Below are positions 2 through 40,040 of a DNA stretch of 40,040 bases, piece after piece. The notes under the pieces were generated by a model. That model worked only from the letters and a program-made list of their open reading frames with translations. It was not told the DNA's origin and made no database searches. Made by a program: the position numbers and the translations under genes. The stretch is from Candidatus Nanopelagicaceae bacterium (lineage in GTDB: Bacteria > Actinomycetota > Actinomycetes > Nanopelagicales > Nanopelagicaceae): the NCBI GenBank assembly GCA_018882885.1, contig VERG01000014.1, forward strand, positions 1 to 40,040. The letters are read 5' to 3'. Every line of letters starts with the position of its first letter. Positions within the stretch are counted from its first letter, which is position 1.

Positions 2-913
2 TATGCGACCTACACTGGATCAGATCCCCGTAAGGTTCCTGCGGTTCTGCTAACTATTGCTTTTGTTGAAGAGGCCTTTGGTGCCTGGCATGTCGAAGGT
101 GGTTTGGGAGGCCTAGCCACAACTTTGGAGTCGCGGGTTAAAGATTTAGGTGTCGATCTAAGGCTTAATTCTTCGGTCGCAAATATCCTGCTGAAGGGGA
201 CGGTTGCAGTTGGGGTTCAGTTAGAAGATGGTTCTGAGCATTATTCAGATGTTGTAGTGGCTAATGCTGATGCTGATTTAATCTACAACAAACTGCTGCC
301 CAAAGTTAAGAAGACTAGTCGCGCCAGAAAAGCTTTGAAAAAGGCAACCCCTTCACTCTCTGGTTTCAGCTTGTTGCTCGGCTTATCTGGAAAATCCGAT
401 CTGGGCCACCACACCGTGTTATTTCCAGAAAATTACGATGCTGAGTTTGACCAGATCTTCAAAGAAAAACAACCAGTAAGTGATCCAGCAATTTACATTT
501 GCAACCCCAATGACTCAAAAATGATAAAAGACCAGTTTTCAGAGAATTGGTTTGTATTAGTTAACGCACCACGGCATGAACCAGATTTGGGTTTTGACTG
601 GCGCAAGCCCGGAATAAAAGAGGGTTATGCCAACCACATTATTGATTTGATGGAAAAACGTGGTTTAGAGGTTCGTTCACGATTGAAAGTAATGGAGATA
701 CGTACGCCGGCAGATTTAGAGATGAATGTACTCGCTCCTGGCGGATCTATTTATGGAACTTCCAGCAATGGCATGCGCTCCGCTTTCTTGCGCGCCAAAA
801 ATCGTTCTCCGATCAAAAACCTTTATTGCGTAGGAGGATCGGCTCATCCCGGCGGTGGACTTCCACTGGTTGGAATTAGCGCTGAGATTGTTGCAACAGC
901 TGTCGAAGAGTAA
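2..913 (+). CDS. CrtI-family FAD-dependent carotenoid desaturase/oxidoreductase (5' end outside window)
   Basis: The reading frame is open from the first bases, so the N-terminal FAD-binding Rossmann motif lies before the window and only about 303 residues are visible. The C-terminal part ends with the CrtI/CrtD-family FAD-binding signature: 'NLYCVGGSAHPGGGLPLVGI'. It also has the family-typical 'EGGLGGLATTLE' segment, as in phytoene desaturase-like proteins. It is a paralogue of the complete CrtI at 3437-4918, sharing its family but clearly different in sequence. With crtE, crtI, crtB and crtYcd nearby, a carotenoid-modifying desaturase or related oxidoreductase is likely, but the substrate cannot be read from sequence. 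Its 3' end overlaps the convergent CDP-alcohol transferase gene by 38 bases. Confidence 0.85.
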   Translation, partial: YATYTGSDPRKVPAVLLTIAFVEEAFGAWHVEGGLGGLATTLESRVKDLGVDLRLNSSVANILLKGTVAVGVQLEDGSEHYSDVVVANADADLIYNKLLPKVKKTSRARKALKKATPSLSGFSLLLGLSGKSDLGHHTVLFPENYDAEFDQIFKEKQPVSDPAIYICNPNDSKMIKDQFSENWFVLVNAPRHEPDLGFDWRKPGIKEGYANHIIDLMEKRGLEVRSRLKVMEIRTPADLEMNVLAPGGSIYGTSSNGMRSAFLRAKNRSPIKNLYCVGGSAHPGGGLPLVGISAEIVATAVEE

Positions 914-3436: not shown

Positions 3437-4918
3437 ATGCGTACCATCAAAGGTAAAAGCGATCATGTTGTTGTAGTCGGGGCGGGATTAGCGGGATTGA
3501 GCACCGCCTTGCGTCTCACTGGTGCTGGTCGCAAAGTAACTGTAATAGAGCGGGAATCAGTCCCTGGTGGCCGTAATGGCTTGCTTGAAAAATCCGGTTA
3601 TGCATTTGATACCGGGCCTACCGTACTTACTATGCCTGACTTAATTTCTGATGCTTTGGCCTGTGTTGGAGAAAGGTTGGAAGACTGGCTCGAACTAATG
3701 CCGCTTCAGCCTTTATACAGAGCCTTTTACCATGATGGCTCGCAGCTAGATGTCCATGCTGATACCGCACAAATGGAGGCGGAGATTGAAAAGGTTATTG
3801 GCAGTGAGGAAGCAGCCGGTTATCGCCGTTATGTAGATTTTGTAACCAAGCTTTACCGCTATGAAATGAATGATTTCATCGATAGAAACATCGATACGCC
3901 ACTAAATTTGCTAACTCCGAATTTGGCACGCTTAATTGCAATTGGCGGATTTAGAAGATTAGCTCCTAAAGTTTCACAATTCTTAAAGGATCCTAGGACC
4001 CAGAAGGTTTACTCTTTTCAAGCCATGTACGCAGGTGTCTCGCCACAACAAGCTCTGGCAATTTACGCCGTTATTGCATACATGGATTCGGTAAATGGCG
4101 TTTTCTTTCCAAAAGGTGGTATGCATGCTGTTCCGCGGGCTTTGGCTGGAGCAGCTGCAAAACATGGGGTGGAGTTCAAGTACAACACTTCTGTAGAAAA
4201 GATTGAAAAGAATGGTTCTCGGGCTACCGCAGTTATTACCTCCAATGGTGAACGTATCGAATGTGATGCGCTGGTACTCAATCCTGATTTACCGGTCGCC
4301 TGGAGAGATCTATTGGGAAAGAGCCCGATATCCATAAAACGTCTTAATTACTCTCCATCATGCGTAACGATTTTGGCGGGCTCTTCACGAAGCTATGACC
4401 ATTTAGCTCATCACAACATTCATTTTGGCCAGTCATGGGATGGTGTATTTGATGAGCTAATTAAGAAAAAAACCTTGATGAGTGACCCAAGCTTGCTAGT
4501 TACAGTTCCTTCAAAGGATGATCCTTCTCTAGCTCCCAAAGGAAAACACAGTTACTACATCCTCTTCCCTACCCCAAACCTTGATGCAGATATCGATTGG
4601 AAGAAAACTAAACTTCAGTACCGCGATCAAATGTTGAAAACTATGGAACAGCGCGGATATGACGGATTCGGCGATTCCATTGAGGTGGAGCACATCACCA
4701 CTCCATTGGAGTGGGAAGCGATGGGGTTGGAGCGCGGCGCGCCTTTTGCTAGCGCACACACCTTCTTCCAAACCGGGCCATTTAGACCAAAGAATTTAGC
4801 CAAAGGTTTTGAAAATGTTGTGTTTACCGGAAGTGGAACTCAACCTGGAGTTGGAGTCCCTATGGTTTTGATTTCTGGCAGATTAGCTGCCGAAAGAATT
4901 GTTGGGCCGGTCAAGTAA
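3437..4918 (+). CDS. crtI: Phytoene desaturase
   Basis: FAD-dependent desaturase that converts phytoene stepwise to lycopene, membrane-associated. The 493-residue protein opens with the dinucleotide-binding motif VVVGAGLAGLSTALRL, followed by ERESVPGGRNG and FDTGPTVLTMPDL. It ends with the CrtI signature FTGSGTQPGVGVPMVLISGR. Length fits the bacterial CrtI family (about 490-510). The ATG follows the crtE stop without a gap, and crtB begins 14 bases after its stop, so translational coupling in one operon is likely. Four-step desaturation to lycopene is assumed from the lycopene cyclase genes next door. Confidence 0.94.
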   Translation: MRTIKGKSDHVVVVGAGLAGLSTALRLTGAGRKVTVIERESVPGGRNGLLEKSGYAFDTGPTVLTMPDLISDALACVGERLEDWLELMPLQPLYRAFYHDGSQLDVHADTAQMEAEIEKVIGSEEAAGYRRYVDFVTKLYRYEMNDFIDRNIDTPLNLLTPNLARLIAIGGFRRLAPKVSQFLKDPRTQKVYSFQAMYAGVSPQQALAIYAVIAYMDSVNGVFFPKGGMHAVPRALAGAAAKHGVEFKYNTSVEKIEKNGSRATAVITSNGERIECDALVLNPDLPVAWRDLLGKSPISIKRLNYSPSCVTILAGSSRSYDHLAHHNIHFGQSWDGVFDELIKKKTLMSDPSLLVTVPSKDDPSLAPKGKHSYYILFPTPNLDADIDWKKTKLQYRDQMLKTMEQRGYDGFGDSIEVEHITTPLEWEAMGLERGAPFASAHTFFQTGPFRPKNLAKGFENVVFTGSGTQPGVGVPMVLISGRLAAERIVGPVK

Positions 4919-4932
4919 CCTTTACTCCAACT

Positions 4933-5841
4933 ATGGATGAGTTAAGCGCAGCCGGGATAACCCAGCCGGCACTTCGAGCCTCTTATGCAGAATGTAAGAG
5001 ACTTAACTCGCTTCACGGCAAGACTTATTACTTGGCAACCTTACTTCTACCAAAAGCTAAACGTCCTCACGTTCATGCTTTATATGGTTTTGCCCGTTAT
5101 GCAGATGAGATTGTCGATGACCTATCATCAAAGCTTTCAAATCAAGAAAAAGCAGATTATCTCCGACGTTGGAGTGATCAGATGCTTCAGGACATCTCCA
5201 ACGGAAGAAGCTCTGACCATGTCGGCGCGGCCCTAGTAGATACTGTACAGAAATTTCAAATTCCTATTTCTTACTTTGAAGCCTTCTTACATTCAATGGC
5301 GATGGATTTAACAGTTACCGAGTATCAAAGCTTTGATGATCTAATGGAATATGTCTATGGATCAGCCGCAGTAATCGGCCTTCAAATGGTTTATGTATTA
5401 GGAACTTTGGAAGGAAAGAAATCTGAGGCTCTTCCACTAGCCGAAAATCTTGGGGTTGCATTTCAATTAGCCAACTTCATTAGGGATGTTGGAGAGGATC
5501 TAGAACGCGGGCGTATTTATCTACCCTTGCAAGAATTACAGAGTTTTGGCGTGTCAAAATCAATGTTAGAACAGCGCAAACTTACGCCTCAAATTATTGA
5601 GGCTTTGAAGTTCCAAATTGCGCGGGTTCGTGTGCTACAAGCAAAAGCTGATTCCGGAATTGCCTTGTTACAGTCTGAAGCTCGCCCGTGCATTGAGGCG
5701 GCTAGTGAACTTTATTGTGGCATCGTTGATGAGGTTGAAAACATTGATTACGACATCTTTAATCACCGCGCCAAGACTTCAACTTTAAGACGCGCAAAAG
5801 TGGCCCTACCAGCTTGGTTCAAAGCCATACAGGCTCGTTAA
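4933..5841 (+). CDS. crtB: Phytoene synthase
   Basis: Head-to-head condensation of two GGPP molecules to phytoene. The 302-residue protein shows both squalene/phytoene synthase Asp-rich motifs: DEIVD (58-62, within YGFARYADEIVDD) and DVGED (185-189, within ANFIRDVGEDLERGRIYLP). It is the last gene of crtE-crtI-crtB. Its stop codon is only 3 bases from the stop of the convergent crtYd, with no recognisable terminator between them. No clear Shine-Dalgarno precedes the ATG, so it may rely on coupling to crtI. Confidence 0.95.
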   Translation: MDELSAAGITQPALRASYAECKRLNSLHGKTYYLATLLLPKAKRPHVHALYGFARYADEIVDDLSSKLSNQEKADYLRRWSDQMLQDISNGRSSDHVGAALVDTVQKFQIPISYFEAFLHSMAMDLTVTEYQSFDDLMEYVYGSAAVIGLQMVYVLGTLEGKKSEALPLAENLGVAFQLANFIRDVGEDLERGRIYLPLQELQSFGVSKSMLEQRKLTPQIIEALKFQIARVRVLQAKADSGIALLQSEARPCIEAASELYCGIVDEVENIDYDIFNHRAKTSTLRRAKVALPAWFKAIQAR

Positions 5842-5844
5842 TCA

Positions 5845-6150
5845 TTAATCTCGCTGTACGCCTTTTTTGCCCCAATACATCCAGAGAGAAATAGTCATCA
5901 CAATCATTGTGAAACCGAAAAGTAAATCTTCTGCGGGAGCGGCAGCAATTCTTAATCCCGTGATTGCATCCGGGCTATAGGTAAGTATTCCTCGTGAGGT
6001 TAACCACCAATTAGTTATTAACTGGAAAAATACCAAAATGGCATACGCATTCCAAAAACTTTTGCGTTTCAAAATTCTAGAGCGGGTTATGTAAAGGTCA
6101 AATAAAACTACTAAAGGAACCGCAACAACGGCCAATTGAGTGTAGGTCAT
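5845..6150 (-). CDS. crtYd: Lycopene cyclase, CrtYd-type subunit
   Basis: Small (101 residues) integral membrane protein with about three helices and the conserved APAEDLLFGF motif of the CarR/CrtYd lycopene cyclase domain. In actinobacteria two such half-size subunits form the heterodimeric lycopene cyclase that closes the end rings of lycopene. Its ATG overlaps the crtYc stop as ATGA (6147-6150), so the two subunits are translationally coupled. Whether the rings are beta (CrtYc/d) or epsilon (CrtYe/f type) cannot be told by eye; beta is assumed. Confidence 0.88.
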   Translation of the reverse strand: MTYTQLAVVAVPLVVLFDLYITRSRILKRKSFWNAYAILVFFQLITNWWLTSRGILTYSPDAITGLRIAAAPAEDLLFGFTMIVMTISLWMYWGKKGVQRD

Positions 6151-6479
6151 ACTTCATCTCCAAAAGACCAGTTTCTCTTAACCGCACGAACCGCTTCAAT
6201 TGTCATTAGAGCGGCGAGCGGAACTACCAAGAAAAATAGGAACTCCTCCAGTGGAATTCCAGAAGGTCCATAAATCCCGACAACTTGTTTTTTATCAAAA
6301 AACCAATGTCCGGAGTGAACTGCGTAATAATCCCAGATCAGAAAAACTGTTGCAGTTGGAATAATGCTTAACAACGCCCTCTTTACTCTTCTCAACACAC
6401 CTACTTTGAAAATGAACTCAAGCCAAAAAGATCCAACTATGGTGAAGGCCAGCATGGCAAAGTAACTGTATTGGAGCAC
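6147..6479 (-). CDS. crtYc: Lycopene cyclase, CrtYc-type subunit
   Basis: Partner subunit of the heterodimeric lycopene cyclase: 110 residues, three predicted membrane helices, with the domain's PLEEFLFFLVVP motif (the PxE(E/D) signature). It starts at GTG 6479 with no Shine-Dalgarno; a TAACAT box on the minus strand (6490-6485) ends 5 nt upstream, suggesting a near-leaderless message. It is transcribed divergently from the TPP riboswitch and overlaps crtYd by four bases. Together the pair converges on crtB, so all core genes for a cyclic carotene are within 4.1 kb. Confidence 0.88.
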   Translation of the reverse strand: MLQYSYFAMLAFTIVGSFWLEFIFKVGVLRRVKRALLSIIPTATVFLIWDYYAVHSGHWFFDKKQVVGIYGPSGIPLEEFLFFLVVPLAALMTIEAVRAVKRNWSFGDEV

Positions 6480-6490: not shown

Positions 6491-6492
6491 AT

Positions 6493-6579
6493 CTCTATTC
6501 CAATCGGGAGCCAAAAGTTGGCTGAGAGGACCTTAAGGTCGACCGTTAGACCAGTTCGGTAATGCGAATTGGAAGGGAG
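6493..6579 (+). promoter_or_regulatory. TPP riboswitch (THI element)
   Basis: The sequence carries the THI-box landmarks in order: GGGAGCC then CTGAGA (6522-6527), two GACC blocks (6541-6544 and 6549-6552), and GGTAATGC (6558-6565) followed by GGAAGGGA. Arms 6493-6501 (CTCTATTCC) and 6571-6579 (GGAAGGGAG) can form P1 with eight of nine pairs. CAGTTCG/CGAATTG forms the P4-like stem. The 3' P1 arm contains the GGGAG Shine-Dalgarno of the next gene, six bases before its ATG. Thiamine pyrophosphate binding should therefore lock P1 and block translation. No terminator is seen, so control is probably translational. Confidence 0.92.
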
Positions 6580-6585
6580 AAAATC

Positions 6586-7167
6586 ATGTCTGTTTTTTTC
6601 ACAGCCTGGGGTTACGGGGTTACCTATTTGGAGTTTGCCTCAGTTATCGCTTCATTTGTCGCTGTAACACTCGGGGCTTTAGGAAAGAGAATTGCCTGGC
6701 CGTGGTGGGTAATTAGTAGCGCCCTATACGGCATCTTCTTTTACCAGGTTGATCTTTTTGCCAGCGCTTTGCTACAGATTGTTTTCATTGCGGCTGCAGT
6801 TTGGGGTTGGTTCGGATGGAAATCTACTGGTGCCCAACCCAGATACATGAAAAATAAGGAGCGCGGGCTTTGGGCTTTAATTTTGGTAAGTATGTGGTTA
6901 ATTAGCGCTCCTATTCTCGCCGATATCGGAGCAGCGGCTTCTAGACCGGATTCATTCCTCTTGGTTTCCAGCACTGTCGCGCAGATCGTAATGGTGCTAC
7001 AACGTCATGAAGCCTGGAGCTTATGGATTGTTATAAATTTGTTTGCTACCTATCACTATTCAAATCAAGAGTACTGGTTTACGGCGGTTCTTTATGTTGC
7101 ACTAACTATTCTTGCCATCTTTGGTTGGTTCAGCTGGCGGAAATTGCAGCAGAACGTTCAATTATGA
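6586..7167 (+). CDS. pnuT: PnuC-family transporter, probably thiamine-specific (PnuT)
   Basis: A 193-residue membrane protein with about six to seven helices and PnuC-family features: an LQIVFIAAAVWGWFGW segment (the family's LQxxFxxxxxxGWxxW) and a late WIVINLFATYHY helix. PnuC proteins are facilitators whose substrate is trapped by phosphorylation inside the cell. The TPP riboswitch directly upstream points to thiamine rather than nicotinamide riboside, as in described PnuT proteins. The ATG at 6586 was chosen because GGGAG lies six bases upstream. An in-frame ATG at 6562 is inside the riboswitch. The stop overlaps the start of the kinase gene as ATGA. Confidence 0.87.
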   Translation: MSVFFTAWGYGVTYLEFASVIASFVAVTLGALGKRIAWPWWVISSALYGIFFYQVDLFASALLQIVFIAAAVWGWFGWKSTGAQPRYMKNKERGLWALILVSMWLISAPILADIGAAASRPDSFLLVSSTVAQIVMVLQRHEAWSLWIVINLFATYHYSNQEYWFTAVLYVALTILAIFGWFSWRKLQQNVQL

Positions 7168-7742
7168 CCAAAAGTTCAGCTTTATCCCTTTCTGAAGTAA
7201 TTAAAATTATTGATACGGGCGAGCGGCGAAATGAATTCGCTCGCATAATTGCAATTGACGGACCAGCAGGTGCTGGAAAGACCACCTTGGCCAAGAAGTT
7301 AGAGATGAACTATTCACACCTTAAGGTTGAAGTAGTTCATATGGACAACTTGTATGACGGCTGGGATAACGCCCTAAGCGCCTCCCTAACTCGTGTTTTG
7401 GAGTATGGCATTGCCAAGCCCGTAAGCGAGGGCAAATCATTTGAATATCGTAAATTTGATTGGCTAGAAATGGAGTACGGCCAGCTGCAACGATTTCCAG
7501 CCCCGGATTTATTAATACTCGAAGGGGTTGGCTCTGGACAGCGCGCGGTACGCAAGTATCTTGATCAGTTAATTTGGATTGATATTGCATCAGAGGTTGG
7601 TTTAAATCGAGTTCTGCGCCGTGATGGTGATTACATCAAAAACCATATGATTATCTGGCAGATGCGGGAAACAGAACACTTTAAGCAGGAAAACACCCGC
7701 GATTGCGCGACTATTCGCATCGACGGGATGAGTTTCATCTAA
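7164..7742 (+). CDS. Uridine kinase-like P-loop kinase, candidate thiamine kinase
   Basis: A 192-residue P-loop protein of the uridine kinase/AAA-like family annotated in many actinobacteria. The Walker A GPAGAGKT is at residues 33-40, followed by HMDNLYDGW (58-66) and the strand LLILEGVGSGQR. The last part, DQLIWIDIASE...LRRDGDY, resembles the LID region of small-molecule kinases. The ATG at 7164 overlaps the transporter stop (ATGA), so both are made from the riboswitch-controlled mRNA. PnuC-type transport needs phosphorylation trapping, so thiamine is the natural candidate substrate here. This is inference: the family as a whole has no firmly known substrate that I can name, and nucleoside kinase activity remains possible. 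Confidence 0.75.
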   Translation: MTKSSALSLSEVIKIIDTGERRNEFARIIAIDGPAGAGKTTLAKKLEMNYSHLKVEVVHMDNLYDGWDNALSASLTRVLEYGIAKPVSEGKSFEYRKFDWLEMEYGQLQRFPAPDLLILEGVGSGQRAVRKYLDQLIWIDIASEVGLNRVLRRDGDYIKNHMIIWQMRETEHFKQENTRDCATIRIDGMSFI

Positions 7743-39949: not shown

Positions 39950-40040
39950 GGCAGACCCACGCTTGTCGATTGCGCCTTGCTATCGACCTGGTCTTCACCC
40001 GGAGCACCCCACCGTGGTGGAGGGTTGCCGTCCAGTTAGC
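39950..40040 (-). promoter_or_regulatory. SAM-IV-type riboswitch (5' part outside the window)
   Basis: On the minus strand the SAM-I/SAM-IV core reads GGCAACCCTCC (40029-40019), GGTGGGGTGC (40013-40004), then CGGGTGAAGACC (40001-39990). A small GTCGAT/ATCGAC hairpin and CAAGCGTGGGTC (39965-39954), the downstream pseudoknot part of SAM-IV, follow. The start of P1 is cut off by the window edge. Downstream, a CCCCC run can pair with the GGGG of the metY Shine-Dalgarno, so high SAM should reduce metY-metX translation. Confidence 0.9.

Follow-up and report, generated by a model that had tools for sequence, protein, structure and literature searches.

The window, a 40,040-nucleotide stretch of DNA from the genome of a Candidatus Nanopelagicaceae bacterium (1.29 Mb, 99.87% complete), was found to contain a single unit on the plus strand, made up of a variant TPP-type aptamer (positions 6494 to 6591), the PnuC-family transporter gene pnuT (6586 to 7167), and a gene for a P-loop kinase (7164 to 7742). 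The pnuT product scored above the PnuC-family signature PF04973 (Pfam name NMN_transporter), with 124.3 bits, and gave 85.1 bits with TIGR01528. It is predicted to be a thiamine uniporter, with both thiamine transport and specificity for thiamine being inferred from the aptamer. The true start of pnuT was placed at 6586 rather than at 6562, because the ATG at 6562 falls within the aptamer. The kinase gene is an open reading frame of 192 amino acids, and its ATG start codon overlaps the TGA stop codon of pnuT in the tetranucleotide ATGA at 7164 to 7167, an overlap observed directly and in agreement with the initial annotation of this DNA. A carotenoid cluster adjoins the pnuT operon at 3437 to 6479 and encodes a phytoene desaturase-like protein, phytoene synthase, and two lycopene cyclase halves; several of these genes were also found beside the pnuT operon in other genera (L074 to L080).

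The kinase had been described earlier as a small uridine kinase-like P-loop protein, and the data bear this out. It matched the Pfam PRK/uridine kinase model PF00485 with 36.7 bits (gathering threshold, 22). The Walker A motif GPAGAGKTT occupies residues 33 to 41 (7260 to 7286, plus strand), and an alignment of 25 homologues revealed invariant or near-invariant positions at G33 to T41, H59-x-D61, Y64, W67, W100, E120-G-V-G, and R149-x3-R153-D154. With the P-loop, the catalytic Asp (D61), and the lid arginines R149 and R153, the criteria for the PRK/uridine kinase superfamily were met. The AlphaFold model was confident (pLDDT, 90.8; pTM, 0.88), and a fold search with it returned uridine-cytidine kinases, PRK, and pantothenate kinase at TM values of about 0.6 to 0.7 (about 0.65 to 0.7 for the uridine-cytidine kinases), while a PDB sequence search with the kinase protein alone gave P-loop matches only. 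Hence, the fold, the Walker A motif, and the lid-type RxxxRD are shared with the uridine-cytidine kinase/PRK superfamily (PF00485; PDB 1rz3, 6pwz, and 3asy), whereas identity to uridine-cytidine kinases is only ∼15 to 20%, the scores lie far below the equivalog cutoffs (31.7 versus 220.3 bits for Udk, TIGR00235), and the genomic context is that of thiamine. The nearest NCBIfam model, which is also the nearest curated family, was PRK06547 (NF005115; E value, 1.9e-31), a "hypothetical protein" family with no function assigned in NCBIfam. Its equivalog cutoff was not met by the window kinase (108.8 versus 173 bits) and was met by two relatives (L112 and L113) whose kinases end yko operons. Among the families listed in Pfam and NCBIfam searches of the kinase protein, there was no match to the APH or ThiK (TIGR02721) models, nor to the TPK catalytic domain PF04263. 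The protein was thus correctly regarded at the outset as unrelated to ThiK and TPK, being instead of the uridine-cytidine kinase/PRK P-loop fold. It may be speculated that the conserved Tyr and Trp residues hold the thiamine rings.

The aptamer was detected directly with the Rfam model RF00059 (cmscan; 42.4 bits, E value of 2.9e-7). Because this score lies below the Rfam gathering score of 54.3, the element is missed by a default scan. In relatives, the aptamers at pnuT loci scored 31 to 47 bits; all pnuT-linked aptamers of the lineage were under the gathering score, and default annotation misses them. The window aptamer was the sole TPP-type aptamer found in a scan of the genome. It shares with RF00059 the helices P2, P3, and P3a, the UAAU L5 loop, and the pyrimidine (HMP) pocket: the J3-2 motif CUGAGA is intact at 6522 to 6527 (plus strand) and was invariant across an alignment of 12 aptamers. 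The role of this motif in pyrimidine (HMP) binding has been described (PMC3764141, PMC7824784).

In contrast to RF00059, the window aptamer lacks the J4/5 nucleotides that contact pyrophosphate and Mg. Alignment to the Rfam model showed that the AU/CG internal loop separating P4 from P5 was deleted, and P4-J4/5-P5 was replaced by one continuous helix at 6553 to 6570 (plus strand), with 6553 to 6558 pairing with 6565 to 6570 around the UAAU loop. The equivalents of A61, U62, C77, and G78 of Escherichia coli thiM were missing, according to our own mapping of alignment columns to thiM; G60, C77, and G78 of thiM bind pyrophosphate or its metal (PMC3764141, PMC7824784). The replacement helix of 6 bp was supported by covariation among 33 distinct pnuT-linked sequences, with 97% of cells paired, 5 of the 6 pairs showing double-sided changes, and a covariation score that was not reached in any of 500 shuffles; slid registers failed. 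The J4/5 pyrophosphate pocket was missing from every pnuT-linked aptamer examined, the covarying helix being present instead, and the canonical GCG was absent from all 33 distinct sequences. The canonical aptamers of relatives, upstream of thiC, thiB, thiO, cytX, and ykoE, retained the J4/5 pocket, and the C77-G78 equivalent was kept by the aptamers of other thiamine genes, including those in three genomes of the same family (G026, G028, and G034). One regular-expression match (L112) was discarded as an antisense false positive. The earlier claim that the kinase is controlled by a TPP riboswitch therefore holds insofar as a TPP-type aptamer lies upstream of the pnuT-kinase pair, but the element is not an ordinary one, since it is without the pyrophosphate pocket.

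The Shine-Dalgarno sequence of pnuT, GGGAG, lies at 6575 to 6579 (plus strand) and pairs in the predicted fold with UCUCU at 6492 to 6496 as part of P1; the predicted fold of the leader was only modestly better than that of shuffled sequences (z-score, −1.6). From the placement of the Shine-Dalgarno sequence in the 3′ strand, immediately ahead of the start codon, control by a translational OFF switch is expected, the mechanism being inferred. In such a scheme, one mRNA would translate both pnuT and the kinase, and binding of the ligand to the THI-type aptamer in the 5′ leader would stabilize P1 and shut off translation.

As a check on the assignment, it had been suggested to survey whether homologues are found together with pnuT and TPP riboswitches, and the outcome was favorable. 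The kinase was identified in 21 of 24 members of the genus, with the 3 genomes lacking it being 67 to 73% complete. In the first set of relatives, pnuT was directly beside the kinase at 27 of 29 loci, all 27 with a THI-type aptamer (two of these, at L022 and L023, were identified by motif and through genome scans); of the two other loci, L009 lies at the end of a contig and L029 holds a distant homologue that stands alone. All three parts were also present at 9 more loci (L041 to L043 and L074 to L079) from other genera and a second family (f39), and at 30 of 30 further loci, one of which (L200) repeats the genome of L043. In all, the aptamer, pnuT, and the kinase were observed together at more than 60 loci of the same family and one other. 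The arrangement recurs in nearly every relative and is not due to chance.

The thiamine pathway of these organisms contains a gap at the step in question. In the window genome, ThiL scored above its cutoff and is encoded outside the operon, and none of ThiE, TPK (PF04263), or a ThiN-type TMP synthase was found. Neither was a recognizable ThiK, the two best APH-family proteins scoring 34 and 28 bits against a cutoff of 299. Both of these (L129 and L130) were rejected as ThiK candidates on account of these scores, and L129 adjoins an acyl-CoA dehydrogenase-like open reading frame; still, the two phosphotransferases cannot be fully excluded as the thiamine kinase of this genome. ThiE and TPK were absent throughout the genus sample (24 genomes), and ThiL was present in every genome at least 90% complete, including all those without ThiE. 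TPK matches in other Actinobacteria covered only 34 to 38 of 113 positions in proteins of ∼380 to 600 amino acids and were set aside as probably SteA-like, an identity that is inferred. With neither ThiE nor TPK, the TMP used by ThiL could come only from a thiamine kinase or from import. Therefore, in the absence of ThiE, TPK, a ThiN-type synthase, and a recognizable ThiK, imported thiamine needs a kinase that converts it to TMP, and the window kinase is the obvious candidate. The absence of TPK from cells that must nonetheless make TPP would also be explained if the window kinase were an unrelated thiamine pyrophosphokinase that transfers pyrophosphate and forms TPP in one step. However, ThiL, which would serve no purpose if the kinase itself formed TPP, is kept in all genomes at least 90% complete, and the fold is that of kinases that transfer a single phosphoryl group. 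This was regarded as the least probable of the alternatives considered, with a very small chance of being correct.

Natural controls on the substrate were available within the family. G028, the one sampled family member that lacks the kinase, has ThiE, ThiO, and ThiG encoded beside the lycopene cyclase pair that adjoins the pnuT operon in the window, and it also has a CytX-type HMP transporter; the thiE-thiO-thiG and cytX sets both lie beside canonical aptamers. This organism imports HMP in place of thiamine, and the kinase would be dispensable to it. G026 (L080) has thiC-thiM-thiE-thiD together with a ThiB-type thiamine transporter and has kept the kinase; its thiC and ThiB sets are each controlled by a THI-type aptamer in which the canonical pocket is present, with a score of 52.1 bits for the one at ThiB. 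In G034, a canonical aptamer precedes the gene for a ThiB transporter, and the kinase homologue is divergent; no pnuT stands beside the kinase, and no ThiE was found. The presence of the kinase thus tracked thiamine uptake and its absence tracked HMP uptake, which points to thiamine as the substrate, with the reservation that the numbers are small and include one absence.

Among Actinobacteria more widely, kinase homologues were identified in 276 of 394 genomes of a class-wide sample. A scan of genome contigs yielded mainly P-loop noise beyond rank 25, and neighboring genes in high-GC genomes were called with codon-position filtering, as antisense open reading frames confound an all-against-all comparison. 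In six loci of two high-GC families (L111, L113, L114, L115, L116, and L117), the kinase was the last gene of a TPP riboswitch-ykoE-ykoD-ykoC-kinase operon, with the riboswitches above the gathering score; YkoE was assigned by PF09819 in L114 to L116 and CbiQ by PF02361 in L068 and L113. A homologue also followed ykoDC in L112 and in Aurantimicrobium, and one followed a gene for an NMT1/THI5-like binding protein in L062 and L118. A tree built from 96 kinases placed the members linked to pnuT, to yko genes, and to NMT1 in separate parts, and the association with unrelated uptake systems therefore arose more than once. This repeated linkage argues for a common thiamine-salvage role in these branches rather than one frozen operon.

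The nature of these partners also bears on whether the kinase acts instead on HMP or hydroxyethylthiazole. YkoEDC and NMT1-type binding proteins often transport HMP or its precursors. In PMC6593275 (Table 1), HMP is assigned to YkoEDC and B1 to YkoEDC2. Against such a substrate, phosphorylated HMP and thiazole could not be joined in the window genome, which is without ThiE, and the kinase is missing from G028 with its CytX HMP transporter and present in the ThiB-bearing G026 and G034. Phosphorylation of HMP or hydroxyethylthiazole rather than thiamine was accordingly judged very improbable.

A nucleoside substrate was also considered. Nicotinamide riboside is the cargo of PnuC proteins of known function, and the NCBIfam name of the transporter follows this; the fold search matched uridine-cytidine kinases, and the eukaryotic nicotinamide riboside kinases belong to the same superfamily. 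The unit could hence comprise a true PnuC and a kinase for nicotinamide riboside or another nucleoside, with the THI-type leader being incidental. However, a THI-type aptamer with an intact HMP pocket was upstream in every examined pnuT locus, homologues stand beside ykoEDC under canonical TPP riboswitches, the HMP-importing G028 is without the kinase, and the Udk score is far below its cutoff. A nucleoside kinase remained the strongest of these improbable alternatives, with a slim chance of being correct.

Homologues scattered without linkage to thiamine genes would count against thiamine as the substrate, and on this point linkage was evident in relatives, with the qualification that in most high-GC Actinobacteria the homologue was a solo gene without a thiamine neighbor. 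In family f3, a fusion (L069, 2852 to 5035) joins a PRK06547-type kinase domain to a chorismate-binding enzyme resembling anthranilate synthase/PabB. Open frames of 704 to 735 amino acids, of the same fusion type, were noted in G038, G300, and G316. Given the solo homologues and the PabB-like fusion, specificity for one substrate is not shown across the family, and the substrate may vary. No kinase homologue was found in the family f5 genomes G040 and G068. G040 keeps ThiL, and ThiE, TPK, a kinase homologue, and a TPP aptamer were not found in it, which suggests that TPP is made by a different route in one lineage or more.

Taken together, the data support the inference that the 192-amino-acid protein, with its uridine-cytidine kinase/PRK fold, acts as a thiamine kinase that converts thiamine to TMP, to which we assign a probability of roughly 0.8; there is no biochemical proof. 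In the proposed mechanism, PnuT would equilibrate thiamine across the membrane, the kinase would trap it in the cell by phosphorylation to TMP, and ThiL would then convert TMP to TPP. That the kinase traps imported thiamine, as initially proposed, is thus supported by the pathway gap and the linkage, but specificity across the family has not been demonstrated and no enzyme assay is available. The predicted reaction (thiamine plus ATP to TMP, with ThiL completing TPP) is like that of ThiK/YcfN (TIGR02721), whereas the fold differs, ThiK being of the APH/choline-kinase fold. Operons of PnuT and TPK in Bacteroidetes likewise place a PnuC-family thiamine transporter and a trapping enzyme under the control of a TPP riboswitch. 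There, the trapping enzyme is a thiamine pyrophosphokinase, whereas here it is predicted to be a TMP-forming kinase, with ThiL providing the second step.

In the family libraries searched, no thiamine-activating enzyme was assigned for Actinobacteria that have ThiL and lack TPK and ThiK. The assignment, if true, defines a new, non-orthologous thiamine kinase family in Actinobacteria, and it provides a gene with which function can be tested in a large family known until now only as "hypothetical" or uridine kinase-like. Freshwater acI-type actinobacteria (Nanopelagicales) rank with the most abundant bacteria of lakes, and their dependence on B1 shapes cross-feeding. No paper was found on this kinase or on a TPP aptamer without J4/5, in a search that did not cover subscription literature or curated subsystem databases; priority for either is not established.

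Since the pyrimidine pocket is kept and the pyrophosphate pocket is lost, the ligand sensed by the variant aptamer may be unphosphorylated thiamine, or else TMP, and not TPP. This inferred ligand is put forward tentatively, at somewhat less than an even chance, and it is also possible that tight ligand binding was lost or that TPP is bound in another geometry. If a shift to thiamine or TMP did occur, these B1 auxotrophs would tune uptake by the imported vitamin or by the kinase's own product. In either case, the variant is a natural case in which a well-understood riboswitch has lost one half of its binding site, and for which the canonical copies in sister genomes serve as controls. Two other riboswitches were noted. 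At L060, an FMN riboswitch (287 to 419, plus strand) precedes a PnuC-family gene that probably encodes a PnuX-type riboflavin transporter, within a few kilobases of a solo kinase homologue. In the window itself, a SAM-IV riboswitch aptamer (39954 to 40040, minus strand; 64.9 bits) is cut by the window end.
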